Shown here: in pieces, positions 10,764 through 59,346 of the stretch
Numbering within the stretch: the first letter of the stretch is position 1
Layout of the letters: every line of letters starts with the position of its first letter
From: Halomonas sp. JB37
GTDB taxonomy: Bacteria > Pseudomonadota > Gammaproteobacteria > Pseudomonadales > Halomonadaceae
NCBI RefSeq assembly: GCF_002332255.1
Contig: NZ_NRGW01000001.1
Location: 2,356,001-2,420,000 of the forward strand
Direction of reading: 5' to 3'
Length of the DNA: 64,000 nucleotides
Made by a program: the position numbers and the translations under genes
Notes under the pieces: model-generated
The model's database searches: none
What the model saw: the letters and a program-made list of their open reading frames with translations, nothing else
Told to the model about the DNA's origin: nothing

Positions 10764-11900
10764 TTAGAGTACATGTGGGTCTACTGCCAAACGTGAGAGA
10801 GGGAGCGTGTCGTCTATAAGGCCCATTTGCAGCAAGTAAGTTTCAAATGCGGTGTAGCGGTGACTGTCAACGGCGGCAGGGCTCAGTGCCATGCGGCGTA
10901 AGATATCCTGCCAGGCGGCCGCGTTGATGTCATTGTCGAGCACGGGATGAGTGGCGGTTAATAGCGCCCATGCTGCGTCATGGTTTTCAACTATCCAATT
11001 GCTGGCCTCTTCAATAGCGGTTGTGAAGCGTGACCACGTATCTGCGCGGCGCACGACGGAATCACTGTTCGCGAGCACCACTAGCCCATCGTGGCGAGGG
11101 ATGTCCAGCTCCTCAAAGCGTATCAAGTGCGTGGTAATCCCTTCGGTTGCTAGCTGCGGCGGTAGGTAGTGAAAGAAACCATCAGCCACTGCGTCTGCCT
11201 GGCCCTCTCTCAATGCTCTTGTCGGATCAAAGTGTAAATTCTGAGGGGCAGAAAAATCATCTGTTTGTTGTACAGAGCGCGGCACTAGTCGTGGGATACT
11301 TAAATTAAGTCCTTCGCGGGTGGTGTAGCCATAATGCAATCCCGCTAGATTTTTTGCGTTATCAAGCTGCTCAGGCCCCATTACGACTACCGCTGTTAAT
11401 GCTGTTTCAATCAGTGTCGCAATTCGAATAATAGGGGCGCCTTCATGGGCATAAAGGTGTAGCAAAGGCTGGCGCGTTAACGCTAAATCTACCTCCCCGG
11501 CCGTTAGTAGTTTGATAGCGATAGATGGATCTGCCGGTGACTGAATGTCTACCTCAAGGCCTTGAGCGGCATAGTAGCCACGTTCTTTGGCCACCACGAG
11601 CGCTGCATGCTGGGGGCTTAAGTACCAATCCAGCATTAGCGTAATGTTTTTTAATGGCGGTGGCTCTAGCGCAGGCGCCGGTGTCAGGGCCATGGTCGGC
11701 ACTTCATCTTCGCTGACATCCTCAATAGGAGTCCACAGTGAAGGTGGCACTACCACAACGGTTTCTAGCGTCAGCGGAATCGCTGTCTGGTCGTTTTTCT
11801 GATCGTCGCTGTCAGCGTGACAAACGGAAGTGAAGAGCAACAAAGTGACAATAACGGTGAGTAACGCAAAGTGCCACTGGCGTGATCGGCAGCGCAGCAT
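10764..11900 (-). CDS. NMT1/THI5-type ABC transporter substrate-binding protein (orphan)
   Basis: Periplasmic solute-binding protein of the NMT1/SsuA-ThiY class, which binds pyrimidine precursors, sulfonates or similar small molecules. Seen: a signal peptide with basic start (MLRCRSRQWHFALL), hydrophobic core and cleavage near SVCHA/DS. An acidic/proline-rich linker precedes the domain, which reads LMLDWYLSPQHAALVVAKERGYYAAQGLEVDI, then AGEVDLALTRQPLLHLY. ATG 11900 follows GGAG; a TTG at 11915 is also in frame. No permease or ATPase gene is adjacent, so the partner and ligand are unknown. Confidence 0.8.
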   Translation of the reverse strand: MLRCRSRQWHFALLTVIVTLLLFTSVCHADSDDQKNDQTAIPLTLETVVVVPPSLWTPIEDVSEDEVPTMALTPAPALEPPPLKNITLMLDWYLSPQHAALVVAKERGYYAAQGLEVDIQSPADPSIAIKLLTAGEVDLALTRQPLLHLYAHEGAPIIRIATLIETALTAVVVMGPEQLDNAKNLAGLHYGYTTREGLNLSIPRLVPRSVQQTDDFSAPQNLHFDPTRALREGQADAVADGFFHYLPPQLATEGITTHLIRFEELDIPRHDGLVVLANSDSVVRRADTWSRFTTAIEEASNWIVENHDAAWALLTATHPVLDNDINAAAWQDILRRMALSPAAVDSHRYTAFETYLLQMGLIDDTLPLSRLAVDPHVL

Positions 11901-12052
11901 AGTCAGTAACTCCAAATCTTGTGACGGCGAAGTGTAGCCGCCGAGTAAAGCTCCTGACCAGCCCTTTAGGCATAAGCGTAAGCCGTCAAGACACAGTAAA
12001 TTAAATGGTTACATGCAATAATAGCGCTGTATTGAAGTAGAGGCAGAGAGTC

Positions 12053-13759
12053 ATGGATGCAATTTATATGTTCTTTTTGGTGGGCGGCGCGCTGATGGCG
12101 CTGAGCATCTTGGCAAGCCGCTTATCTTCAATGATGGGTGTACCTGTACTACTTATTTTCCTAGGGCTGGGCATGCTGGCGGGTGAAGAGGGCGTGCTTG
12201 GTGTGGTGTTTGATGATTACTCCATGGCGTTTGCTATTGGTCATCTCGCGCTTGCCATGATCTTGTTAGATGGCGGCTTGCGTACTCGCCTTAAAACCTT
12301 CCGGGTTGGTTTTAAACCGGCACTTTCTTTGGCCACGTTTGGCGTTTTTATCACCAGTGGTATCGTTGGCTTAATCGCGATGTGGATTTTTGATCTCACG
12401 CTGGTGCAGGGGTTATTAGTCGGTGCGATTGTTGGTTCGACCGATGCTGCTGCCGTATTTTCAATGCTTAGTGGCAGCGGCGTTAATCTTAATGAGCGGG
12501 TAGGGGCTACGCTTGAAATAGAGTCAGGCACCAACGACCCGATGGCGATTTTCCTGACGCTAATGTTGGTGGAGTTGCTGGTAGGTGAGATTGGCGGCCC
12601 AACGGACACGCTGCTATTTTTCATTTCGCAATTTGGAATTGGCTTAATTGTTGGGATCGGCGGTGGCTGGCTAAGTGCCAAATTGCTGCGCTGGCTCGAC
12701 TTAGCACCGGGCCTTTATGCAATGTTAGCGCTGGCGTTAGGATTTAGCGTTTTCGGCTTCGCCAGCGTATTGGGCGGTAGCGGATTTTTGGCGATTTACC
12801 TAACCGGTCTGATGATTGGCAATCAGCCGGGGCGGCACCTCAATTTCATTTTGCCTGTACATGACGGCTTGGCATGGCTCAGTCAAATCGGCCTATTCTT
12901 GGTGCTGGGTTTATTAGTAACGCCCAGTGAGCTATGGGACGTAGCGCTGCCTGCCAGCTTGGTGGCGCTAGCGCTGATATTTATCGCTCGCCCATTGGCC
13001 GTGCTGATTGCTATTAAGCCATTTTTCAAATTCCGCTGGCGCGAAACCTTCTTCATATCCTGGGTAGGGTTGAGAGGCGCCGTTCCGATTGTGCTGGCCA
13101 TCTTCCCGGTTATAGGCGGGGTCGAAAATGCCTCTCTGTACTTTAACATCGCCTTTGCTGTTGTATTGATGTCACTGCTGATCCAGGGCGGCTCGCTAAC
13201 GCTAATGGCCCGGTACCTAAAGGTAGAGGTGCCGGTTGGCACCGTCCCCAACCGACGGGGTCCGCTGGGTATTTTGCCCGAAAATGACTTTGAGCTATTT
13301 GTTTATGGCGTAGAAAATCAAGATTTAGAAGACGTGCCTATTCGCCTGCTGCGTTTTCCTTCTGGGGCATTAATTTCTGCGCTGTTTCGTAATCACGCCA
13401 TGCTGCAACCGAAGGGCAGTACGCGCCTGCAACTGGGCGACGTGATTTGCGTTATTGGTCGCTCAGCGGATTTGAATACCCTTAATCGGTTGTTTAATGG
13501 TGATGCGAAACTAAAACAGGAGCGCGAGTTCTTCGGCACCTTTACGCTGGATGGCACCTCACTAATGCAAGATGTGGCCCTAGCCTATGGTTTAACGTTA
13601 AGCGACGGAGAGGCGAGCATAACGCTGGCTGAATTTGTTGCCATGCGCGTAGGAGGGCATCCAGTGCTAGGGGATGATGTGGACTGGCACGGCATTCACT
13701 GGGTAGTCAGCGAGATGGAAGGTGGAAACATTACTCGCGTTGGTATTCGATTGTACTAA
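12053..13759 (+). CDS. cvrA: potassium/proton antiporter, CvrA/NhaP2 family
   Basis: Inner-membrane CPA1 cation/proton antiporter with a cytoplasmic regulatory tail. Seen: about 12 membrane segments, motifs [24 protein letters not shown] and [14 protein letters not shown] (acidic residues of the ion path), and [13 protein letters not shown]. The soluble part contains a TrkA-C-like domain ([39 protein letters not shown], about residues 430-475) and a CorC/HlyC-like end. 568 residues. In a halophile it probably adjusts cytoplasmic potassium or volume. Substrate K+ versus Na+ cannot be told from sequence alone. Confidence 0.88.
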
Positions 13760-13764
13760 GGGCG

Positions 13765-13792
13765 TTGACTTACAAGGAAAAGCTGGTAGTAT
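13765..13792 (+). promoter_or_regulatory. sigma70-like promoter of tRNA-Ser
   Basis: TTGACT (13765-13770), 16-nt spacer, TAGTAT (13787-13792), ending 15 nt before the mature tRNA 5' end. Confidence 0.5.
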
Positions 13793-13807
13793 ATGCACGC
13801 ATAAGCC

Positions 13808-13898
13808 GGAGGGATGGCAGAGCGGTTGAATGCACCGGTCTTGAAAACCGACGTAGGTGAATAACCTACCCAGGGTTCGAATCCCTGTCCCTCCGCCA
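13808..13898 (+). tRNA. tRNA-Ser (anticodon TGA)
   Basis: Acceptor stem GGAGGGA pairs with TCCCTCC (13888-13894), then G and an encoded CCA. D-loop AGCGGTTGAA, anticodon loop CTTGAAA with anticodon TGA at 13842-13844. There is a long variable arm typical of class II tRNAs (GTAGGTGAATAACCTAC) and T-loop GGGTTCGAATCCC. The anticodon stem has one mismatch at its base (C-A). 91 nt. Confidence 0.97.
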
Positions 13899-15789: not shown

Positions 15790-15927
15790 TATCAGGCAGT
15801 CCGGCATACGGCCTGTGCTGTTTATCGATATGCTGAAAGTTGCCAGTTTAATCGGCAGCAACGCTTATAAGCGCGAGTAGATGGCCAGCACTATTTTGAG
15901 CGAGAAGCTTGATATTTCGGTTTGTCA

Positions 15928-16414
15928 GGCGTGAAACAACCGGATGCCGAAAGACGTAAAGTTGTGGCTATCAATCTGGCCGATGCCGAATTGGCGACCG
16001 AGCTTGTCATACCTGAGAATAAGGATGTCATGAACGATGCGGCCCTGTTCGGCGTACATCTGCTGACAGACTTATCTCTGTGATGCGCATACTCAGATGC
16101 GCCGCTTCACGCTTGATGGTACTGCTGACGGCACGGATCAACTGCCAGGGATAGGCAGCGCTAAAGCTTGGCACCGAGCGGGACAGTTGGAGAACAAGCA
16201 GAATGTCTTTGATGATTTTATCGCGGTCAGTGAGTTCCTTATAACGCAAGGCATCACGATGGAAACTGGTTTGGTTGTCCAGGGCGAATCCAATGGTGGG
16301 CTGGTAGTGGATGCTGTAGTGAACCAACGACCAGACCTTTATGCGGCAGCCTTACCTGGCAGGAAACTCAGCGACCGTTTTGGGGCATCGGTTTCCGCGC
16401 TTCGTGTACAGTAG
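15928..16414 (+). pseudogene. decayed prolyl oligopeptidase (S9A)
   Basis: Two reading frames together resemble the middle and catalytic parts of prolyl endopeptidase. 15928-16082 encodes RRKVVAINLADAEL..LVIPENKDVMNDAALFGVHLL. A frame change near 16080 leads into DAHTQMRRFTLDGTADG. The stretch WHRAGQLENKQNVFDDFIAVSEFLI, then QGESNGGLVVDAV (active-site Ser) and NQRPDLYAAALPG follows. The N-terminal propeller, the end of the catalytic domain and the catalytic Asp/His are missing. 15790-15927 and 16415-16589 hold nothing I can name. Confidence 0.75.
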
Positions 16415-16589
16415 ACCAAGTGTACCGGCTGTCACTACTTCGTAATCCGCGAAGATACGATTGATGCACGTGATCTGTTGCAACACTTTGAGCGAAACCA
16501 TACTTATTTGTCTCTTTTTAACCTGGCGTGGGTGCGGATCGCCTACATAAACAGCCGAAGGATCAACCCTTGCTCATTCTCATTCAACA

Positions 16590-17270
16590 TTATGACTGAC
16601 TCCCCAAAAGTCGTTTTTTTCGAGTGCGAAGGTCGTCTTGTTCTAGAGCCGCCGAAAATATTGGCCTCCAGCTAAGAATGTGGTGCTGCAAGAGTGTAAT
16701 AAGCTCGCCCGTCTCACCGGCATCAATAAGTTCAATAATGCTGTAATGCTCCCCGACTGATTCACGTTGTCGGTCCACCCCTGCACCCGAGCGAATACCG
16801 AAGAGGCGCATCCTATCTCGAAGGGAGAGTGCTGTCTTGGCTAACAGTTCATTTCCAGACGCCATGAACATGGCGTTGTGAAAGGAACGGTCGGCGACAA
16901 GATAAGCACGAACATCATCCTCCTTGACGGCACGTTCGATTTCGCGGGCATAGTGTTTTAGCGGTTCTGTGTCGCATGGCGTATCGGCCATCATCAATTT
17001 TGCGGCCTGTATTTCTAAAAGATCGCGCATAGCGAAAAGATCGTGCAGCTCCTTCATCGACGGTCGCGAAACCCTAAAGCCTTTATTTCTAACAGGCTCG
17101 ACCAACCCGGAATTTGCCAATTCGAGCAATGCTTCACGAACGGGAGTCGTTGAAACATCGAGCTCAGCTGATAATGCAGGGACGGAGTAGAGCGTCCCTG
17201 GAAGGCTCTCACCTGAAATGATTTCGGAGCGAAGCTGCTTCAGGATGCGCTCGCGAAGATTCTGTTGCAT
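16590..17270 (-). CDS. GntR-family regulator, FCD (FadR-type) subfamily
   Basis: Ligand-responsive repressor or activator. Seen: winged helix ERILKQLRSEIISGESLPGTLYSVPALSAELDVSTTPVREALLELANSGLVEPVRNKGFRV (about residues 8-65), then the all-helical FCD domain with the metal-binding pattern DRSFHNAMFMASGN, EHYSIIELIDAGE and LLQHHI. FCD proteins usually sense organic acids. ATG 17270 is chosen; an in-frame GTG at 17282 would add four residues and no strong ribosome site decides. Divergent from the molybdopterin fusion gene with a large palindrome between, so it very likely controls that gene. Confidence 0.9.
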   Translation of the reverse strand: MQQNLRERILKQLRSEIISGESLPGTLYSVPALSAELDVSTTPVREALLELANSGLVEPVRNKGFRVSRPSMKELHDLFAMRDLLEIQAAKLMMADTPCDTEPLKHYAREIERAVKEDDVRAYLVADRSFHNAMFMASGNELLAKTALSLRDRMRLFGIRSGAGVDRQRESVGEHYSIIELIDAGETGELITLLQHHILSWRPIFSAALEQDDLRTRKKRLLGSQS

Positions 17271-17324
17271 TGGCGTGTTCACTCAGATTTTTGGATGCAT
17301 TTTTTCAATGATAATTCGTTACCT

Positions 17325-17353
17325 TTGACAAGGCCAGAATCCAAATGCATTAT
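17325..17353 (+). promoter_or_regulatory. sigma70-like promoter for the molybdopterin fusion gene
   Basis: Perfect -35 TTGACA (17325-17330), 17-nt spacer, CATTAT (17348-17353) as -10. The -10 lies inside the 36-bp palindrome, an arrangement that lets a bound protein block polymerase. Confidence 0.55.
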
Positions 17354-17378
17354 TGTAGCGCGCTACAATAATGCATTT
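17343..17378. promoter_or_regulatory. exact 36-bp palindrome, probable GntR operator
   Basis: Arm AAATGCATTATTGTAGCG (17343-17360) is followed directly by its exact reverse complement (17361-17378), with no spacer or mismatch. It overlaps the putative -10 of the fusion gene and ends 19 nt before its ATG. The outer half ATGCATTT recurs at 17295-17302 nearer the GntR gene. FCD regulators bind short dyads, so a single dimer would cover only the core; the extra length suggests two dimers or a cruciform. Confidence 0.75.
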
Positions 17379-17397
17379 AAAAGTGCGAGGTCGACTC

Positions 17398-20300
17398 ATG
17401 ACTGAACAAAGGTTCAAGGGATATTGCACGCTCTGCCGTTCACGCTGTGGCTCAGAGACGGTTGTGCGTGGTAACCGTGTTGTGTCTATTGAGCCCTTGC
17501 GTGACCACCCAACTGGCGGTGCTCTTTGCGCGAAGGGGCGAGCTTCTCCCGAGATGGTTCACAGTCCTGAGAGGCTACGCACTCCTTTACGGCGAATTTC
17601 TCCCAAAGGCGCTCCGAACCCCAAATGGGAGGCAATTTCTTGGAACGATGCGCTTGACGAAGTTGCTAGCCATCTGGGTGACATCAGGGACGTAGACGGT
17701 CCCGAAGCGGTTGCTTTTGCGATTACCACGCCGAGCGGTACCCCCATGGTGGATAGTTTCGAGTGGGTTGAACGTTTCGTTAGGTGCTTCGGCTCGCCCA
17801 ATCTTATCTACGCCGTTGAGGTTTGTGGCTGGCACAAGGACTATGCCCATGAACTAACCTTCGGACGCGGCATCGGTTTTGCCGACTATGAAAATGCCGA
17901 CGTTATCCTCCTTTGGGGTCATAATCCGGCAAGGACATGGCTTGCCCAGGCTAGTCGAATTGCCGAAGCTCGCAGCCGAGGCGCGAAGGTTGTCGTCATT
18001 GACCCCAAGCCAAATGGATCTGGGCAGCAAGCCGACGTTTGGCTGCGAGTGCGTCCAGGAGCTGATTCGGCGATCGCGATGGGCGCCATCCGCCATCTAA
18101 TCAAAACGAACACCTATAATGATGCGTTTGTCCGCCGGTGGACAAACGCCTGCGTGCTGGTCAACCAGCAAACGGGCCATCTTGTCCGCGCGGAAGATCT
18201 CTGGGGCGGGGAAGGGCCCAAGCATCTTGTTGTGGTCGATAAGAGTGGAGTACCGCGAAGATTCGATCCTTGGGCCTCTGAAGCAATGGCTGATGATTTC
18301 AAACTCAACCATGAACTTCGGCTGACCGATCGAAACGGTACCGAATTTATCGCCAAGACGGTTTACTCCTTGCTTGAGGAAACTGCCGAACCTTTTACAC
18401 CGGCACATGTCGCTGACGTCAGTTGGGTAGATAGGTCCGCACTTATACAGTTTTACGCCTTACTCGAGGGTAATCCAAAGCTGGCATACCATTCTTGGAC
18501 GGGGGTCGGGCAACATACCAATGCCACTGCCATCGAGCGTGCCATTGCGAGTATGTATGCCTTGACGGGCGCGTGCGATATACCTGGCGGAAATATATGG
18601 CCGACACCGCCACCGACGCGTACCGTCAATCAGCTTTCACTGTTACCGAAAGGGCAGAAGGAGAAGGCCCTTGGACTTTCTGAGCTGCCCCTTGGACCTC
18701 CATCCCGCGGATGGATTACCGCCCGCGATTTCAGCCGTGCAGCTACCGAACATTTACCTTACCGAGTTCGGGCATTGATGAGCTTCGGTACTAACTTTGT
18801 GGTATCGCAGGCTGATGCTGAGCGCAATCTGGCGGCGTTACGCGCATTAGACTTCCATGTACACGCGGACATTTTCATGAACCCGACAGCGGAGTGTGCT
18901 GACATCATACTACCGGTGAATTTGTCCCCAGAGCGTGATGCATTAAAAATCGGTTTCGAAATCAATCAGGCGGCGGTTGAGACCCTCCAGTTTCGCCCCA
19001 AAATGATCGATTGTGAGTTCGATGCTCGCGCCGACTATGACATTGTTTTCGATCTTGCCTGCCGTCTGGGTCTTGAGGTGGATTTCTTTGGCGGTAGCAT
19101 AGAGGCGGGGTGGAATTGGCAGCTTGAGCCATTGGGAGTGACGGTCAATCAATTGCGACAATCCCCCGGCGGAAAGAGGTTTCCCCAACCATCGTCATTG
19201 CAGAAACATGGCCAGCTCGCGCTAAAGGATAGGCTTAAAGGATTTCCTACTAGCTCGGGGCTTGTCGAACTCTATTCTGAGCAACTTCTAGACATTCACT
19301 ACCCCGCCATTGCCTGCCATGTCGAGCCTTTGGAAAGCCCAATGCACGCGGATAGCAAGGGAGCGAACTTCCCTCTTACATTGACTACTGCAAAATCCGG
19401 CTGGTTCGTGCACAGCTCTCATCGGCATATTACGTCCCTCCGTAAGAAATCACCTGACCCCATGATAGAAGTTAGCGGGACGCTTGCGCGTTCACGTGGG
19501 CTGTCCGAAGGAGACTGGGCCTATGTCGCGACCACTGCCGGTAAAGCTCTGCTGCGGGTGAAACTGAATGAGGCGCTGGACGATCGTGTGGTTCTGGCTG
19601 AATTTGGCTGGTGGCAGTCTTCGCTAGCTCTTAACCGTGCTGAAACTCCAGTATCTGGTCCAAACACAAGTAATATAAATGCGGTACTGAGCGATACAGC
19701 ACACGATCCTGTCAGCGGTTCAGTTCCATTGCGTGCCATCCAGTGCGAAATCAGCCCGCACCCAACCCGGAATATCGGGCGTTGGAACGGTTGGCGTGAT
19801 TTCAACATTGTTCGAATACGGCCAGAGGGTAGCAATATCATCGCTATTGAACTGGCACCTGCGGACGGTCAGGCCCTGCCGGAGTTTCTGCCAGGGCAAT
19901 ATGTCGCTACCAGAGTCGGCCCAGATGGCCCAGCCCGTTCCTATTCATTGACCGGCTCTGGCTTGTTCTCCAACACACTATCGATTGCCGTTCGGCGTCA
20001 GGGCACAGACCTCGAAGGGCTGGAAGGAAAATCGCTCTCGGCTTCCCTTCATAAATTATCTATCGGTGACGGCCTCCAGCTTGAATCTCCAGCCGGGGTG
20101 TTTAATCCTCCAACGCATGGTGACCGACCCATTGTCTTCATCGCAGCTGGTATTGGCATCACACCGTTTATCAGTGCACTGGAACGCCTCGTGGCCGAAA
20201 GTGGAAACACTGAAATCATGTTGCTTCATGGATGCCGAAGTGGGGACGAGCACCCCTTTTCAAACAGGCTAAAAGAGTTTCGTACGGCGCTGCCTAATCT

Positions 20301-20796
20301 GCATAGCATCACCGCATATTCTGCTCCTCTACCGTCCGATGAGATTGGCAAGGATTACACGGTTCACGGTCGGGTAGATTTTTCGGCGGTCACTCTGCTC
20401 CAGTCAAGAAGACCACTCATCTACATCTGTGGATCCCCTGGCTTCATTGACAGTGCGAACCAGGCGATGAAAGCACTAGGCATTCCGGCGTTTGACATCA
20501 TGTTCGAGGCCTTTACCTCGCCTAACCCTGTTCCCCTTGAGTTACAGCCTCAAATCGTTCACGTAGCAGGAACAGGGAATAGCTTTGAGTGGCGACCAGA
20601 AATGGGCTCGATCCTTGACGCCGCCCTTGAGCATGGCTTTTCGCTACCGAGCGGTTGTCGCGTCGGTCAATGTGAGAGCTGTATCTGCGAGCTTATTGAT
20701 GGAGAAGTCGCGCATCTTAGCGGCAGCGAATTGGAAGCAAATCAGTGTTTAACCTGTCAGGCCGTGCCGTTGACAGAGATTACAATCGCCACGTAA
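17398..20796 (+). CDS. molybdopterin oxidoreductase fused to FAD/NAD reductase and 2Fe-2S ferredoxin
   Basis: An apparently self-sufficient redox enzyme of 1132 residues. Residues 10-44: [4Fe-4S] cysteines C10, C13, C17, C44. About 60-620: molybdopterin domain of the DMSO-reductase superfamily, with Cys143 (VCGWHK) as probable Mo ligand and IERAIASMYALTGACDIPGGN. About 655-760: molydopterin-binding domain. About 800-1030: FNR-type FAD/NAD module (RSYSLTG near 847, IAAGIGITPF near 915). About 1050-1132: plant-type ferredoxin (C1087, C1092, C1095, C1117 or C1120). NAD(P)H electrons would flow through FAD and 2Fe-2S to Mo. No Tat signal, so cytoplasmic. Substrate unknown. Start ATG 17398 has GAGG upstream; an ATG at 17371 lies inside the palindrome. 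Confidence 0.88.
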   Translation: MTEQRFKGYCTLCRSRCGSETVVRGNRVVSIEPLRDHPTGGALCAKGRASPEMVHSPERLRTPLRRISPKGAPNPKWEAISWNDALDEVASHLGDIRDVDGPEAVAFAITTPSGTPMVDSFEWVERFVRCFGSPNLIYAVEVCGWHKDYAHELTFGRGIGFADYENADVILLWGHNPARTWLAQASRIAEARSRGAKVVVIDPKPNGSGQQADVWLRVRPGADSAIAMGAIRHLIKTNTYNDAFVRRWTNACVLVNQQTGHLVRAEDLWGGEGPKHLVVVDKSGVPRRFDPWASEAMADDFKLNHELRLTDRNGTEFIAKTVYSLLEETAEPFTPAHVADVSWVDRSALIQFYALLEGNPKLAYHSWTGVGQHTNATAIERAIASMYALTGACDIPGGNIWPTPPPTRTVNQLSLLPKGQKEKALGLSELPLGPPSRGWITARDFSRAATEHLPYRVRALMSFGTNFVVSQADAERNLAALRALDFHVHADIFMNPTAECADIILPVNLSPERDALKIGFEINQAAVETLQFRPKMIDCEFDARADYDIVFDLACRLGLEVDFFGGSIEAGWNWQLEPLGVTVNQLRQSPGGKRFPQPSSLQKHGQLALKDRLKGFPTSSGLVELYSEQLLDIHYPAIACHVEPLESPMHADSKGANFPLTLTTAKSGWFVHSSHRHITSLRKKSPDPMIEVSGTLARSRGLSEGDWAYVATTAGKALLRVKLNEALDDRVVLAEFGWWQSSLALNRAETPVSGPNTSNINAVLSDTAHDPVSGSVPLRAIQCEISPHPTRNIGRWNGWRDFNIVRIRPEGSNIIAIELAPADGQALPEFLPGQYVATRVGPDGPARSYSLTGSGLFSNTLSIAVRRQGTDLEGLEGKSLSASLHKLSIGDGLQLESPAGVFNPPTHGDRPIVFIAAGIGITPFISALERLVAESGNTEIMLLHGCRSGDEHPFSNRLKEFRTALPNLHSITAYSAPLPSDEIGKDYTVHGRVDFSAVTLLQSRRPLIYICGSPGFIDSANQAMKALGIPAFDIMFEAFTSPNPVPLELQPQIVHVAGTGNSFEWRPEMGSILDAALEHGFSLPSGCRVGQCESCICELIDGEVAHLSGSELEANQCLTCQAVPLTEITIAT

Positions 20797-21105
20797 GAAT
20801 AAAACAAAAAGGAGGTAAATGAAGTGTGCACTCCAAGACGAGATCCCAAGTCAGCCCAAGCGGGAAATGAGAACATGGTTATGCGCTTATCACGCGTCAT
20901 GGTCTCACCCTGTGGTCTGCTCGTGAAATAGTGCTAGCAGAGAAAGGAGCATAGTACTACCAGAGGAAGGGTATTCGTCGATGTCTGCCGGATGGTGGAA
21001 CACCAGCATATCGATTGGGATAACACTATAAAAACTGACCAGCGCCACTCTGACCTACCGTCATCATCGCGGTATTAATCACTGACCTCCAGGCGGAACC
21101 ACATC
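20797..21105. other. intergenic region with a strong but apparently orphan ribosome site
   Basis: 309 bp between the fusion gene and the transporter. AAAGGAGG at about 20808-20815 sits 3 nt before ATG 20819, which opens a 35-codon frame (MKCALQDEIPSQ..., stop 20924-20926) resembling nothing I know. A second purine-rich patch (GAGAAAGGAGC near 20942, AGAGGAAGGG near 20961) precedes another short frame. The region may be the scar of a deleted gene between fusion enzyme and transporter. Confidence 0.4.
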
Positions 21106-22422
21106 ATGTTTAAAACATTCACTAACGGCTTTGTTAACGCGTTTGATCGCTACATGCCCGACCCGCTAATTCTGGTACTTTTCATCACATTAATTGTGTT
21201 CTTAGCTGGCATTGTTTTTCAAGGCCAAGCACCTGTGGCAATGCTCGGCTATTGGCAAGATGGGTTTTGGAATCTGCTAAGTTTTGCAATGCAGATGACG
21301 CTTATTCTTGTGGCAGGGTTCTCTGTAGCGCGTACGCCAGTATTTATGGGGCTGGTAGATCGTATCGCTGGCGTAGCGAAAACGCCTGGACGTGCCATTT
21401 TAACAGTGAGTTTCACAACGTTAGTCCTATGCTGGATTAACTGGGGCATGGGCCTAGTGGCTGGTGCAATTCTTGCCCGCGAATTGGCCCGGCGAGTCGA
21501 AGGTGTCGACTATCGACTATTGGTGGCCAGTGCCTATGCGGGCTTCATCAGCTTTCATGCTGGCCTATCAGGGTCAGCAACGCTACTTATTGCAACGCCA
21601 GGGCACTTTCTTGAAGATCAGATCGGTTTGATCCCGACCAGCGAAACAATCTTCAGTGCACTGAACCTAAGTATATGCGCGGCGATCCTTATCGTGTTAC
21701 CGCTGACCTGCCGCTTATTGATGTGGGGTATCGATAAGCCTGTGACTGTAAATTCTGACAACCTAAAAGAAGACGTCGTTAAGGACAGCCCATCAGAGGC
21801 GCTGCGTCCGGCTGAACGTTTAGAGCGGTCCAAGACATTAGCATGGGTAAGTGCGGCATTGGGCTTTGCTTCGGTGGTCGTTTATGCCGTAAATGGGGGT
21901 GGCCTCAATCTAAACATCATCATCTTCGTGCTCATTTTTCTAGGCTTGGCTCTGCACGCTAGCGCACGCAGCTTTCTTGCCGCTATCGATGAGGCGGCGC
22001 GCGGGGTTTCCGGCGTGCTTATCCAGTTTCCGTTCTATGCTGGGATTATGGGCATGATGAGTGCTTCAGGTCTGGGGGCTGAGTTAGCACAAGCGTTTGC
22101 CAATATTTCGACGCCTGGCACATTGCCGTTTGTGAGTTTTCTATCGGCGGGCATACTCAATATCTTCATTCCATCGGGAGGAGGGCAATGGGCGGTTCAA
22201 GGGCCTATTCTTGTCGAGGCGGCCCAGTCGCTAAACGCAGATCTCGCGGACGTTGTTATCGCGTTTGTGTGGGGTGATGCTTGGACCAATTTGATTCAGC
22301 CATTCTGGGCACTGCCCGTATTGGCAATTGCTGGGCTCAAGGCGCGCGATATTATGGGTTTCTGCGTGATAATGATGGGCACAACAGGCGTCGCGATTTC
22401 CGCCATATTGTTGTTATTTTGA
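21106..22422 (+). CDS. short-chain fatty acid transporter, AtoE family
   Basis: Inner-membrane permease of the AtoE/SCFA family (DUF2074 type), which carries short carboxylates. Seen: 438 residues, about 11 hydrophobic segments, LVAGFSVARTPVFMGLVDRIAGVAKTPGRAI, WINWGMGLVAGAILARELARR, HAGLSGSATLLIATPGH, and FIPSGGGQWAVQGPILVEAA, the family hallmark. It is co-directional with the molybdopterin fusion gene 309 bp upstream and probably supplies its substrate or removes a product. The true substrate is not shown by sequence. Confidence 0.88.
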   Translation: MFKTFTNGFVNAFDRYMPDPLILVLFITLIVFLAGIVFQGQAPVAMLGYWQDGFWNLLSFAMQMTLILVAGFSVARTPVFMGLVDRIAGVAKTPGRAILTVSFTTLVLCWINWGMGLVAGAILARELARRVEGVDYRLLVASAYAGFISFHAGLSGSATLLIATPGHFLEDQIGLIPTSETIFSALNLSICAAILIVLPLTCRLLMWGIDKPVTVNSDNLKEDVVKDSPSEALRPAERLERSKTLAWVSAALGFASVVVYAVNGGGLNLNIIIFVLIFLGLALHASARSFLAAIDEAARGVSGVLIQFPFYAGIMGMMSASGLGAELAQAFANISTPGTLPFVSFLSAGILNIFIPSGGGQWAVQGPILVEAAQSLNADLADVVIAFVWGDAWTNLIQPFWALPVLAIAGLKARDIMGFCVIMMGTTGVAISAILLLF

Positions 22423-22866
22423 AAAAAAAACGGGACAGAGTTCGTTTGGCCTACCTGTGTCGAAGCGCTATGTTTTCTGGTATTTCGTGATATTTATTTG
22501 CCTCTAGCTTTCACAAGGTTGTTGTTAATATAGCGCTTCATTGCTGGGGTTACTTGCTAGATAGCGTCCTGGGCAGTCTGTTCATTGTGCCGCTGCAGTA
22601 GAGCAAAGGCTCAAATTCGCTTTCCCATCTGGAGATACTCAACCTCGCCAACGACAGTGGTATAGGCGCGACCCGTATAGTTCACTCATAGAAGCCACTT
22701 TAATGCCTCTGACTCGCCAGGGGCATTTTTTTCTAAAATTCTCCTGTGTGCACGAGCTATCTTTCATTAAGAGTCATTTAGTCACTTATCTTTTCATCAT
22801 CCTTGGTTGAACCTATTCTTCTGCTTGTTGCTCAATAGATATGGGTACGGCAAAAGGAGATCTGCC
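22423..22866. other. intergenic region with possible minus-strand gene remnant
   Basis: 444 bp. On the minus strand, roughly 22680 down to 22505, a frame reads YLQMGKRI*AFALLQRHNEQTAQDAI*QVTPAMKRYINNNLVKARGK* (* marks stops); it looks like a broken C-terminal coding piece of unknown family. The frame also contains VVGEVEY. A hairpin at 22704-22732 is listed separately. No intact gene is seen. Confidence 0.35.
22704..22732 (+). terminator. rho-independent terminator
   Basis: Stem TGCCTCTG / CAGGGGCA (one G-T pair), 6-nt loop, then a run of T residues to about 22732. Confidence 0.7.
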
Positions 22867-23076
22867 ATGAACAGTGTAGATAAGTGCCAAAAGTGCGGTA
22901 AGGAATACAACCCCGACGTTGAGATCGAATCTAAAGCGACACCTACATGTGATTCTTGTGGGGCAGCGCTTTTTGAGCCAACCGCGGAAGCAGACTTTGA
23001 AAGAGAAGGTGAGGAACATCTTATTGAAAAAGGGCTGCGAAAAATCGCGGGTGAAATAACAGGCGATAAGAATTAA
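22867..23076 (+). CDS. small zinc-ribbon protein
   Basis: 69 residues. Seen: CQKCGKEYNPDVEIESKATPTCDSCGAALFEP, two CxxC knuckles spaced as in a zinc ribbon, followed by an acidic helical tail (EADFEREGEEHLIEKGLRKIAGEITGDKN). ATG 22867 follows AAAGGAGA at a good distance. Function unknown; a nucleic acid- or protein-binding accessory factor is possible. Stands alone after a terminator. Confidence 0.75.
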   Translation: MNSVDKCQKCGKEYNPDVEIESKATPTCDSCGAALFEPTAEADFEREGEEHLIEKGLRKIAGEITGDKN

Positions 23077-23212
23077 TTCCGTGGCTAGGATTTAATCTTT
23101 CCTATCATTTACCTCTAATGTCGACTTCTAAGCCCCTACGCTTGTCGCGGTGGGGGGCTTAGAGCTTTGCTGAAAAGGCTTCTAGCTTTCTAGAGAACCC
23201 GGCTGAGCCGTA

Positions 23213-23383
23213 TCAAAAACCAGACGTATTAATCTTTGTCCCTCGCATACAGTCACCGTAGGCCATCGTGTCGCCCATTTTTTCTGCTACATCGCGGCAA
23301 TCTGCGGTTCGTGATGAAGAAGGACCTGAGCTGCAGCCTGCCAGCAGTACGGCAATTAAACACAGTGGAATGAGTGCTTTCAT
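23213..23383 (-). CDS. small lipoprotein
   Basis: 56 residues, MKALIPLCLIAVLLAGCSSGPSSSRTADCRDVAEKMGDTMAYGDCMRGTKINTSGF read in parts: type II signal peptide with lipobox LLAGC (lipidated Cys17), then a short secreted part with three Cys (17, 29, 45). AAGGAG lies 7 nt before the ATG. No Asp follows the lipidated Cys (Ser instead), so an outer-membrane location is expected. Function unknown. Confidence 0.75.
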   Translation of the reverse strand: MKALIPLCLIAVLLAGCSSGPSSSRTADCRDVAEKMGDTMAYGDCMRGTKINTSGF

Positions 23384-23612
23384 GGATAACTCCTTATCAG
23401 TTAAATAATCCTGCTACATTTAACAGCATCTATGCGGTCTATGTCGATTGGCTAAAATTTATGCGTGCGAATGCGAAGCATATCTCCGCCATTGATATGC
23501 GAATATTCCTCAGAGCCGTAAAATGGCAATCAACCATCGGGTCTGCTCGTGACGGAACGTCAACGTAGGCACTAGTGTCTTAGCTGAAATATTCTTTAAC
23601 GAGGAGTGGCGT

Positions 23613-23795
23613 ATGGAGCGTGTATTCGCATGGGATCATCGACGCGAGCAAGTGGTTTATCGTATTCCAGGGCATACGCATGATGATGGTAGAGAAGATA
23701 GCGACTTCTCACCTGTCTGGCTGCCGAGCAGCGAGTCAGAGTTGCCGGATGGCATCTCCGTCGATGACCTGCGAAAAGTAACCGTTAAGGATTGA
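23613..23795 (+). CDS. small hypothetical protein
   Basis: 60 residues, acidic and charged, without signal peptide or membrane segment: begins MERVFAWDHRREQVVYRIPG and ends with DGISVDDLRKVTVKD. GAGGAGTGGCG precedes the ATG, which is the main support that it is translated. Family not recognised. Confidence 0.55.
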   Translation: MERVFAWDHRREQVVYRIPGHTHDDGREDSDFSPVWLPSSESELPDGISVDDLRKVTVKD

Positions 23796-24012
23796 TTCTA
23801 TCGATGGAAAAATACCAATCCTGCTGAAGCGGACCACCTGATACAGGCGTTAAGTATTTGAGAGACAGATAATTGTGAATAGGAATATCATTCAAAAGTC
23901 TTCTAAGAGCGGTTAACATTATTTAATTCACGTTAGGCCCCGTTGTTTATCTAAAAATAATCGTTATTATGCTGTCAGCTTGATGCTATTAATTCACTAA
24001 GGAAGATCTACC

Positions 24013-24174
24013 ATGTTGAAAGGATTGATTGTCTGCTTTGCGGTGCTATTTGCTCAATTGGCAGTGTTGCATGTGATCGATGCACGTCTATATAGCTCTC
24101 CTCAAGATGCCCGTCAAACGGCAGTCACGACCGTGACCGCCCACAAAGATGATGAAGAAGAAGCACAAAGTTAA
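24013..24174 (+). CDS. small single-pass membrane protein
   Basis: 53 residues: one hydrophobic segment (LKGLIVCFAVLFAQLAVLHVI) and a cytoplasmic or periplasmic tail ending in an acidic run KDDEEEAQS. AAGGAAGATCT precedes ATG 24013 and TAA is at 24172-24174. Function unknown; the segment could also be an uncleaved signal anchor. Confidence 0.5.
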   Translation: MLKGLIVCFAVLFAQLAVLHVIDARLYSSPQDARQTAVTTVTAHKDDEEEAQS

Positions 24175-24242
24175 ATAATTCTTCCATCAGACGATGACCT
24201 AGTGGCACGGCTCGCGTCACTAGGTGTTCGTAAGAGTTAGAT

Positions 24243-24500
24243 TTATTTAGGTATCTCATTTAGCCAGCCTTTAAACGTTGCCCACGAACGCTGGTCGGCG
24301 TTTTCTCGGTAGGCAGCGCTTCCAAACACGCTAAATGCGTGCGGGGCACCGAAATAAATACCGACTTCGTAGGCAATGCCCGCTGTTTCAAGCTCACCTG
24401 TGAGTAGTGCAACGTCGAATTACCATTTGCGTAGACGACAAGTACTTGCGTCTGGAACTCAGTAACGGCATTCTTGTCCGTCGGTAGAATACTATTAGGG
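24243..24500 (-). pseudogene. C-terminal remnant of a dienelactone hydrolase family gene
   Basis: Read on the minus strand, one frame gives EFQTQVLVVYANGN and, after a frame change near 24425, another gives FDVALLTGELETAGIAYEVG and GAPHAFSVFGSAAYRENADQRSWATFKGWLNEI followed by TAA (24243-24245). These match the last third of DLH-family hydrolases: LVLHGADD region, ELEAAG, the catalytic His in GHAF, and AxxRSW. The N-terminal two thirds with the nucleophile Cys are absent. It abuts the yccA start. Confidence 0.75.
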
Positions 24501-24511
24501 AGCATTAACAC

Positions 24512-25192
24512 ATGGCTTACAACGACTCACGTATGGCACGCCCCCAGTCCGGTGGTGTGGCAAACAGTGTCAGTACGAATAAAGTATTGCGTAATACCTA
24601 CGCACTGCTGGCGATGACACTCTTGTTTTCGGCAGTAACAGCGGGTGCCGCTGTTGCAATGGGCATCCAGCAAATGAACATTATCGTGTTCTTTGTCGGT
24701 GCTTATGGACTGATGTTCCTTGTCCATAAAACGGCGAATTCAGCGACAGGGTTGCTGGCTACGTTTGCGTTTACGGGGTTCATGGGCTTTACCCTTGGGC
24801 CGATTCTTTCTGCCTACCTAACGCTCCCAAACGGCGGTGCATTGATCATGAATGCGCTTGCTATGACCGGGCTTACGTTTGTTGGTTTGTCCGCTGTGGC
24901 ACTTACGACCAAAAAGGATTTTAGCTTTTTAAGTAATTTCCTGATGGCTGGTGCCATCGTGCTGATTCTTGCCATGGTCGCGGGTATCTTCTTCAATATT
25001 CCCGCGCTGTCACTAATGGTATCTGCAGGCTTTGTACTGTTTGCTTCAGCTGCCATTCTGTATCAAACCAGTGAAATCATTCACCGCGCTGGTGAGACTA
25101 ACTACATTCTCGCTACCGTGACGCTTTACGTATCCATCTACAATCTGTTTATTAGCCTCCTGTCGATTCTGGGCATTATGAGTAACGACTGA
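24512..25192 (+). CDS. yccA: Bax inhibitor-1 / YccA family membrane protein
   Basis: Seven-helix inner-membrane protein; E. coli YccA is a substrate and modulator of the FtsH protease. Seen: 226 residues, soluble N-terminus MAYNDSRMARPQSGG, about seven membrane segments, GFMGFTLGPILSAYL (UPF0005 signature), and LYVSIYNLFISLLSILGI at the end. GGGAG lies about 10 nt before the ATG. Monocistronic, with a strong terminator after it. Confidence 0.9.
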   Translation: MAYNDSRMARPQSGGVANSVSTNKVLRNTYALLAMTLLFSAVTAGAAVAMGIQQMNIIVFFVGAYGLMFLVHKTANSATGLLATFAFTGFMGFTLGPILSAYLTLPNGGALIMNALAMTGLTFVGLSAVALTTKKDFSFLSNFLMAGAIVLILAMVAGIFFNIPALSLMVSAGFVLFASAAILYQTSEIIHRAGETNYILATVTLYVSIYNLFISLLSILGIMSND

Positions 25193-58560: not shown

Positions 58561-59346
58561 TCAACACTTAACTGCACCGTAGGCGGCCTTCATCCCTTCC
58601 TGTACCGCATCGCGGAAACCATGCTGCAGCATGGCATTTAACCCTTCAGTAGTGGTTCCGCCATAATCTAAAAAGCGGGCCACCATGTCGGCAGGCGACG
58701 CGTTCTCATCCAGCATCAGTTGACTAGCGCCTGACAGCGTTTGCAGTACGCCGCGCTGGGCCACTGTTGGAGAAATTCCTTGTGTGATTGCATGCTGTAT
58801 CAGAGCATCAGCCAAGAGCGCAGGAAAAGCAGGGCCGCTGCCCGTTAACGCGGTCAGATAATCGATTTGCGATTCATCTTCTACTTCATCGCTTACGCCA
58901 CAGGCAGAAAACAGGCGCTGAACGAAAGCGCAATCTTCCGCGCTCAAGCCTGGCATTGCGCACCAAGGGGTATAGGAGCGCCCTACTGACGCAGCTGCGT
59001 TGGGCATGGCACGCACGATTCGATTGCTCCCCGTTGCCGCAGCCAGTGCGACTATTGGCACCTTGGCCATTAACGAAATCACCAGCCGATTTTCAAGTGA
59101 AAGCGTTAGTAGGGAAAACTGCTCAGGCCTCACAGACACCACGACGACCTCAGCAACTTCAAGCAGTGCGTCAGCGCTCTCGACACAGATCACTCCTGGC
59201 CAGTCCTGATAGCGGTTATGCTCTCGACTGGCCGTCACCACCAGCTGGTTTGGTGATATTAGTCCGCTAGATAACACTGAGCGGCCCAACGCACTGCCTA
59301 ACCAGCCGTTACCCCCGATAATGCCGAGCGTTAATATCGGTTTCAT
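58561..59346 (-). CDS. ProC-like pyrroline-5-carboxylate reductase family protein
   Basis: NAD(P)-dependent imine reductase family, 261 residues. Seen: nucleotide loop TLGIIGGNGWLGSALGRSVL, SVRPEQFSLLT, RAMPNAAASVGRSYTPWC, ALTGSGPAFPALLADALI, and FLDYGGTTTEGLNAML (P5C-reductase signature). Overlaps the TetR gene by 38 bp, with AGGAG 7 nt before its ATG, so the two are co-expressed. The deviating loop (GGNGWLG) and context suggest a paralogue acting on N-methylproline or related imines rather than the biosynthetic ProC. Confidence 0.83.
   Translation of the reverse strand: MKPILTLGIIGGNGWLGSALGRSVLSSGLISPNQLVVTASREHNRYQDWPGVICVESADALLEVAEVVVVSVRPEQFSLLTLSLENRLVISLMAKVPIVALAAATGSNRIVRAMPNAAASVGRSYTPWCAMPGLSAEDCAFVQRLFSACGVSDEVEDESQIDYLTALTGSGPAFPALLADALIQHAITQGISPTVAQRGVLQTLSGASQLMLDENASPADMVARFLDYGGTTTEGLNAMLQHGFRDAVQEGMKAAYGAVKC

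Follow-up and report, generated by a model that had tools for sequence, protein, structure and literature searches.

We analysed a 64,000-nucleotide stretch of the Halomonas sp. JB37 genome (contig NZ_NRGW01000001.1, positions 2,356,001 to 2,420,000), referred to as the window herein, for a three-gene locus built around a molybdenum enzyme gene. All three open reading frames (ORFs) were confirmed in the window ORF list: 16590-17282 on the minus strand, and 17371-20796 and 21106-22422 on the plus strand. The central gene (17371..20796, +) encodes a fusion oxidoreductase in which a molybdenum-bis(pyranopterin guanine dinucleotide) (Mo-bisPGD) part is joined to a flavin adenine dinucleotide (FAD)/nicotinamide adenine dinucleotide (NAD) part and a 2Fe-2S ferredoxin; the product has 1141 residues, or 1132 when counted from the ATG at 17398. 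Divergently transcribed from it is the gene for a GntR/FCD transcription regulator (16590..17282, -; 230 residues), whose FCD domain (74.4 bits) and GntR helix-turn-helix (49.3 bits) both exceed their Pfam cut-offs, as defines the FCD subfamily of GntR proteins. Downstream lies the gene for an AtoE/SCFA_trans family carrier (21106..22422, +; 438 residues), which passes the cut-off of PF02667 (SCFA_trans; 468.1 versus 27 bits) and does not pass that of TIGR00366 (466.3 versus 575.75 bits).

The fusion gave matches above the Pfam cut-offs to Molybdop_Fe4S4, Molybdopterin and Molydop_binding, followed by NAD_binding_1 and Fer2. FAD_binding_6 scored slightly under its cut-off (20.2 versus 21.1 bits), and the FAD domain is backed by matches to flavohemoglobin and phthalate dioxygenase reductase. 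Arranged in a single open frame, the domains run in the order [4Fe-4S], molybdopterin, dinucleotide-binding, FAD/NAD and 2Fe-2S ferredoxin, and domain and profile matches place the Mo part at about 17398-19746, the FAD/NAD part at about 19765-20532 and the ferredoxin part at about 20557-20793 (all +). With its three Mo domains in order and all above the Pfam cut-offs, the protein belongs to the dimethyl sulfoxide (DMSO) reductase (Mo-bisPGD) superfamily. In an alignment of 16 members, C10, C13, C17 and C44 are unchanged and are read as the probable [4Fe-4S] ligands; C1087, C1092, C1095, C1117 and C1120 are also unchanged, and four of these are read as the probable 2Fe-2S ligands. C143 (codon 17824..17826, +), likewise unchanged, occupies the metal-ligand position and aligns with a Cys of acetylene hydratase and thiosulfate reductase; as we take that Cys to ligate the metal in those enzymes, C143 is the likely ligand here. 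The Pfam and Protein Data Bank (PDB) matches and the invariant cysteines therefore bear out an earlier note on this DNA, which had described a fusion of [4Fe-4S]/molybdopterin, FNR-type FAD/NAD and C-terminal ferredoxin domains. The simplest prediction for the fusion is a single-chain reductase driven by NAD(P)H, an arrangement that is, to our knowledge, unusual in the DMSO reductase superfamily and that would be easy to study, as no partner subunit is needed. A structure predicted from a four-row alignment (mean predicted local distance difference test score 46.1, predicted template modelling score 0.31) was not used.

One explanation to be weighed is that the fusion simply belongs to a known family, such as the assimilatory nitrate reductases, formate dehydrogenases or acetylene hydratases, and has gained a fused reductase. 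The formate dehydrogenase alpha model TIGR01591 was the top NCBIfam match, one plasmid copy is annotated nasC, and the closest PDB sequence was acetylene hydratase 2e7z (299.2 bits with the family profile). However, among the best 25 of 42 NCBIfam models, to which these statements apply, no cut-off was passed: TIGR01591 scored 222.9 bits against 666.25, and the NasC model NF047855 scored 129.8 bits against 1100. The 16 fusion members have Arg or Lys after the second cluster Cys, where acetylene hydratase has an Asp that we take to be catalytic, and Gly, Asn or Thr after the metal-ligand Cys, where FdhF has a His, presumably functional, after its Sec/Cys ligand. In a rough tree, the three other superfamily proteins of the window's genome fell outside the fusion family on long branches. 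All three identities were rejected on the curated cut-offs and the absent diagnostic residues, and we consider a known-family origin highly improbable. Judged by these comparisons, the fusion family lies outside the characterised families that could be tested, which supports the earlier proposal of an undescribed, self-sufficient Mo/FAD/2Fe-2S enzyme.

Parts of the fusion nevertheless resemble known enzymes. Acetylene hydratase 2e7z shares the [4Fe-4S] domain and the Cys at the metal-ligand position, but it has no fused FAD/NAD and ferredoxin domains, and its reaction involves no redox change. Thiosulfate/polysulfide reductase 2vpw and the formate dehydrogenases 7qv7 and 1aa6 share the superfamily, the [4Fe-4S] and Mo-bisPGD domains and the Cys ligand; unlike the fusion, these enzymes use separate electron-transfer partners. 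The C-terminal third resembles phthalate dioxygenase reductase 2pia and the reductase domain of flavohemoglobin 1cqx, which use FAD and NAD(P), and 2pia also ends in a C-terminal 2Fe-2S ferredoxin. Those modules serve oxygenases or a globin, whereas the module of the fusion would serve a Mo centre.

Full-length fusion members at 37-76% identity were found in several classes, and so the gene is not a chance ORF. Counting the window's own genome in all but the last of the genome sets given here, matches occurred in 10 of 275 genomes of the window's family; in 5 of 370 in an even draw of its class, at full length in G268 and the window's own genome; in 5 of 397 in a draw of the phylum, G667 among these being unfused; and, with the L008 protein as query, in 18 of the 387 genomes from the class that includes G596 (a Paraburkholderia protein served as this query), 16 of the matches being stand-alone Mo proteins about 780 residues long. 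At least 80% of the fusion was present, at 37-45% identity, in 26 of 72,556 plasmid records. Members are known from Alpha-, Beta- and Gammaproteobacteria and from Rhodococcus. A Mo-domain tree placed 31 fused rows in one group (support 97/90) versus 12 unfused rows, with one change of state; the unfused L079, L081, L087, L088 and L091 are absent from the trees and included in the neighbour counts below. For genomic context we used 16 of the 26 plasmid records, leaving out H8, H12, H14, H17-H19, H21-H23 and H26, mostly repeat genera, and we also left out G438 (internal stop), G1039 and G1172. The neighbours of the stand-alone relatives L079-L091 (about 780 residues; 16/387 genomes, class of G596) vary from locus to locus.

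Genes within 3 kb were compared between 32 fusion loci and 17 control loci of stand-alone or two-gene relatives, the counts covering the families searched for. The filters applied (FCD, E <= 1e-15; LysR, at least 35% identity; L048-type Ldh_2, at least 40% identity) removed from the 17 controls an Ldh_2 gene in L039 (24.5% identical to that of L048) and weaker FCD matches in L020, L079, L090 and L091, of which the one in L020 adjoins its Mo gene. L020 belongs to the unfused set as a two-gene form with a separate, adjoining ferredoxin-type reductase gene. L013 (annotated as two overlapping genes) and L014 (Mo gene in two pieces) were both counted as fusions, L021 and L032 were both counted in spite of near-identical Mo genes, and L053 was left out as very likely a repeat of the L001 contig. 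L032 and L036 are short contigs on which neighbours were possibly missed, and L083 has a masked stretch upstream.

An AtoE gene was present at 14/32 fusion loci versus 0/17 unfused loci. Within the window's family it adjoins the fusion in eight of the ten fusion-bearing genomes (the exceptions being G692 and G932); each of these ten has two or three full-length AtoE genes, except G932, which has one plus fragments. Two AtoE subtypes are used, split by a branch of about 6 changes per column, of which 3.0 and 2.9 fall to the two sides of the midpoint. L003, near the window in the Mo tree, carries the other subtype, and L002 and L031, from a different Mo clade, carry that of the window. Gene order varies among loci while the gene set stays together. 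The association between fusion and AtoE is real, as the earlier note had claimed for its permease, and it recurs in other genomes. An FCD gene was found at 5/32 fusion loci and a LysR gene at 11/32; the FCD protein thus stands as a divergent local regulator and, since LysR takes that place elsewhere, does not define the module as had been suggested. In L051 (2737-16330) and L052 (2647-16355) the LysR-Mo-AtoE set lies, as if inserted, between two long genes that by eye we take to be recB and recC.

An imino-acid reductase gene, absent from the earlier note, appears to be the best clue to the chemistry of the fusion. Such a gene was found at 11/32 fusion loci: nine OCD-type, one extra ProC (L001) and one Ldh_2-type (L048). 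The OCD-type gene was present at 9/32 fusion loci versus 0/17 unfused loci, and all nine proteins, scoring 390-425 bits, pass the 322-bit equivalog cut-off of NF004793, the delta1-pyrroline-2-carboxylate / delta1-piperideine-2-carboxylate reductase model. At L008 the OCD partner gene occupies 12926-13867. The extra ProC, at 1/32 versus 0/17 loci, scores 231.6 bits against the TIGR00112 cut-off of 196.75 and is in line with the FCD gene of L001, whose fusion is 76% identical to that of the window; a better-scoring ProC besides this one is found in G948, very likely the same genome as L001. On the Mo tree the AtoE state changes at least 6 times and the reductase state at least 8 times, and both links have therefore been made or lost repeatedly. 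Members of the OCD and MLD2 superfamilies have been assigned proline ketimine reduction (PMC4113996), and proC lies beside hypD, whose product is pyrroline-5-carboxylate (PMC12899673), which provides a precedent for a dedicated ProC adjoining the enzyme that makes its substrate. With the reductase link, the loosely defined organic-acid module yields a prediction that can be tested, namely that the product of a Mo reductase feeds proline.

Three further observations concern genes outside these counts. In the window, 58579-59322 (-) encodes a ProC-like protein that scores below the TIGR00112 cut-off (168.7 versus 196.75 bits), the genome's better ProC lying elsewhere. Proline racemase superfamily genes occur in 10/12 fusion-bearing genomes and are not discriminating. 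At L007, a gene resembling L-aspartate dehydrogenase was not counted: it is part of a transport operon 7 kb away from the fusion, and its product reaches no NCBIfam cut-off.

From the domain make-up, the conserved cluster residues, the repeated gene association and the family of the OCD/ProC partners, we infer a reaction direction, substrate, product, transport and regulation as follows. Our preferred reading, advanced tentatively and held with somewhat less than even confidence, is that the fusion acts in the cytoplasm as an NAD(P)H-dependent Mo (or tungsten) reductase and feeds proline via a cyclic imino acid, with pyrrole-2-carboxylate as the preferred substrate. The AtoE carrier would import a small nitrogen-containing monocarboxylate. 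Hydride from NAD(P)H would enter at FAD, and single electrons would run via the 2Fe-2S and then the 4Fe-4S clusters to the Cys-ligated Mo-bisPGD centre, which would reduce the acid to delta1-pyrroline-2-carboxylate or delta1-pyrroline-5-carboxylate; a dedicated or housekeeping imino-acid reductase would then convert this cyclic imino acid to L-proline. The FCD (or LysR) protein may be the sensor of the acid and regulate the promoter. We put the chances of a proline-type imino acid as the product at about even. Pyrrole-2-carboxylate as the substrate is a possible but more doubtful assignment. It would fit because cyclic imines of the proline type are the substrates of the partners, and carriers of this family transport small monocarboxylates; as a flat monocarboxylate with an uncharged nitrogen, it would suit both.

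Addition of two electrons and two protons to pyrrole-2-carboxylate across C4-C5, followed by tautomerisation, would give delta1-pyrroline-2-carboxylate, the substrate of the OCD-type enzyme, and reduction across C2-C3 would give delta1-pyrroline-5-carboxylate, the substrate of ProC. Two reduction positions on one substrate would explain the unrelated partner reductases, and the same scheme would explain loci that, like the window, have no reductase and would draw on enzymes from other parts of the genome; that of the window carries one gene of the OCD family, away from the fusion and above the NF004793 cut-off. By rough estimates from gas-phase data, the four-electron step from pyrrole-2-carboxylate to proline lies near -0.27 V and is favourable with NAD(P)H. 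In its strongest form the proposal is that these proteins are a new class of Mo (or tungsten) enzyme that dearomatises pyrrole-2-carboxylate with NAD(P)H, needing neither ATP nor a partner protein, the coupled imine reductase pulling an uphill first step through to L-proline; this we regard as rather unlikely. Nitroguanidine, prompted by Variovorax and a shooting-range isolate, was dropped as a substrate, as no literature match joined both search terms.

A number of observations weigh against a pyrrole-to-proline role. The window has no such reductase gene beside its fusion, and NF004793 covers the six-membered imine too. The Ldh_2-type protein of L048 (PF02615, 304.1 bits) passes no NCBIfam cut-off, and the Ldh_2/MLD2 superfamily has further substrates. 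In control L039 an Ldh_2-family gene (11201-12319, -) adjoins the stand-alone Mo gene, so that without the 40% filter Ldh_2 neighbours occur at 1/32 fusion and 1/17 unfused loci; because a control has such a neighbour too, this case carries little weight. A tree-based test for joint occurrence of AtoE and reductase, with 4 independent pairs on starred branches and a median p of 1, spoke neither for nor against it. We know of no enzyme of the DMSO reductase superfamily that reduces a pyrrole. The first two-electron step, roughly estimated from the same kind of data at about -0.4 V, is uphill, for which reason a coupled imine reductase would be useful. In addition, oxidation of 3,4-dehydroproline by ProC is reported to be irreversible or quasi-irreversible, presumably via aromatisation (PMC12899673), which makes it probable that the first reduction of the pyrrole acid is uphill with NAD(P)H.

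Finally, AtoE or a reductase was found at 17/32 fusion loci and neither at 15/32, and function may therefore differ between clades. These 15 loci are what a detoxifying or respiratory-type reductase, acting on an S-oxide, N-oxide, chlorate or metal oxyanion, would have in its favour, with the AtoE and reductase neighbours only loosely linked or separate. Plasmid copies point the same way: L011 (Enterobacter) and L021 (Raoultella), which lack AtoE and imino-acid reductase genes within 3 kb, adjoin metal-resistance genes, namely those for a metal-transporting P-type ATPase and a metal-responsive regulator, and L009 lies beside a nitric oxide reductase gene. However, AtoE and OCD-type genes recur in distant clades, in changed order, with two AtoE subtypes and at 0/17 unfused loci, and we consider such a role improbable. 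At L009 (3956-15537, a Sphingobium yanoikuyae plasmid) the fusion copy sits between two IS6100 transposase genes, and the segment that they bound also holds genes annotated as nitric-oxide reductase, patatin-like protein and 3-hydroxybutyrate dehydrogenase.

The uphill first step would be avoided if the Mo centre instead cleaved an N-O bond, deoxygenating an oxime acid, an N-hydroxy amino acid or a pyrroline nitrone, with the OCD-type enzyme or ProC reducing the resulting imine. Oxygen removal is common chemistry in the superfamily, as in N-oxide and oxime reductases; a cyclic imine product would suit the same partner reductases, and oxime acids, as small monocarboxylates, are possible AtoE-type cargo. 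Yet no common natural nitrone or oxime acid known to us explains the ProC partner, a linear imine would be unsuitable for ProC, and no result here points specifically to N-O chemistry, so that this explanation is unlikely. An oxidative direction would also escape the uphill step with the same substrate, carrier and OCD partner: the Mo centre would hydroxylate pyrrole-2-carboxylate with water and pass electrons to NAD+, and the OCD-type enzyme would reduce the oxo-pyrroline to pyroglutamate, with no net redox change. Water-derived hydroxylation exists in the superfamily, in ethylbenzene dehydrogenase, a distant profile match. Against this, FAD/2Fe-2S modules usually run from NAD(P)H, the nearest matches are NAD(P)H-using reductases, and the ProC of L001 would be left unexplained; we regard the oxidative direction as very unlikely. 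For the organic-acid handling put forward in the earlier note, the reductive part is thus favoured and the hydroxylating part appears less likely, and its "short carboxylate" is too vague.

If the substrate is the aromatic pyrrole acid, as our preferred reading would have it, the reaction would represent a biological dearomatisation carried out at a bis-pterin metal centre with plain NAD(P)H as the driving force. Pyrrole-2-carboxylate arises as a by-product of hydroxyproline breakdown, and a reductive salvage route for it would bear on how cells recover nitrogen from such by-products and from pyrrole natural products.

Among the matches listed in a search of the PMC literature, we found no report of the Mo-fusion module or of pyrrole-2-carboxylate reduction. 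The same candidate substrate is acted on by HudA, a prenylated flavin mononucleotide-dependent enzyme, which decarboxylates it (PMC7976604), and by a flavin-dependent oxygenase of Arthrobacter Py1, which oxygenates it (a title in the reference list of PMC12899673). Pyrrole-2-carboxylate is thus otherwise known to be decarboxylated or oxygenated, and a reductive route was not met in the portions of the literature covered. In the trans-3-hydroxyproline pathway the last step to L-proline is carried out by an OCD or MLD2 enzyme, as proposed here, but the imine comes from dehydration of hydroxyproline, without a Mo enzyme (PMC4113996, in the part covered). The survey of proC neighbours in section 2.8 of PMC12899673 names no molybdenum enzyme in the part covered, and the portion covered of the table of new molybdoprotein domain fusions in PMC6147048 does not name the present fusion.

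The intergenic region of the window offers candidate control elements. Orthologues of the FCD regulator occupy the same position in L001 (79% identity), L003 (63%) and L047 (65%). A promoter-like pair read by eye, TTGACA (17325-17330) and CATTAT (17348-17353) with 17-nt spacing (17325..17353, +), precedes the Mo gene, and its TTGACA is unchanged in the window, L001, L003 and L047. An inverted-repeat scan found a 36-bp perfect palindrome (17343..17378, no strand), a candidate FCD operator that overlaps the CATTAT element and covers the first ATG; L001, L003 and L047 have shorter inverted repeats within the corresponding regulator-Mo gap. Together these elements would fit repression by the FCD protein, relieved by the substrate acid, at a putative operator. 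Because the palindrome overlaps the first ATG, translation more likely starts at 17398 than at 17371. The alignment of close relatives also begins near this second ATG, and 17398 is probably the true start, yielding 1132 residues. Known RNA families gave 0 matches at the gathering threshold in window positions 15800-24600. The Mo and AtoE genes are 309 bp apart in the window (20797-21105); in L001 the earliest possible AtoE start follows after about 25 bp. On the far side of the FCD gene, residues 32-100 of a 115-residue stop-to-stop piece (16067-16411, +) match Peptidase_S9, of the prolyl oligopeptidase family, with 64.7 bits; the piece is a decayed remnant, and its place beside a possible proline module may be coincidence.

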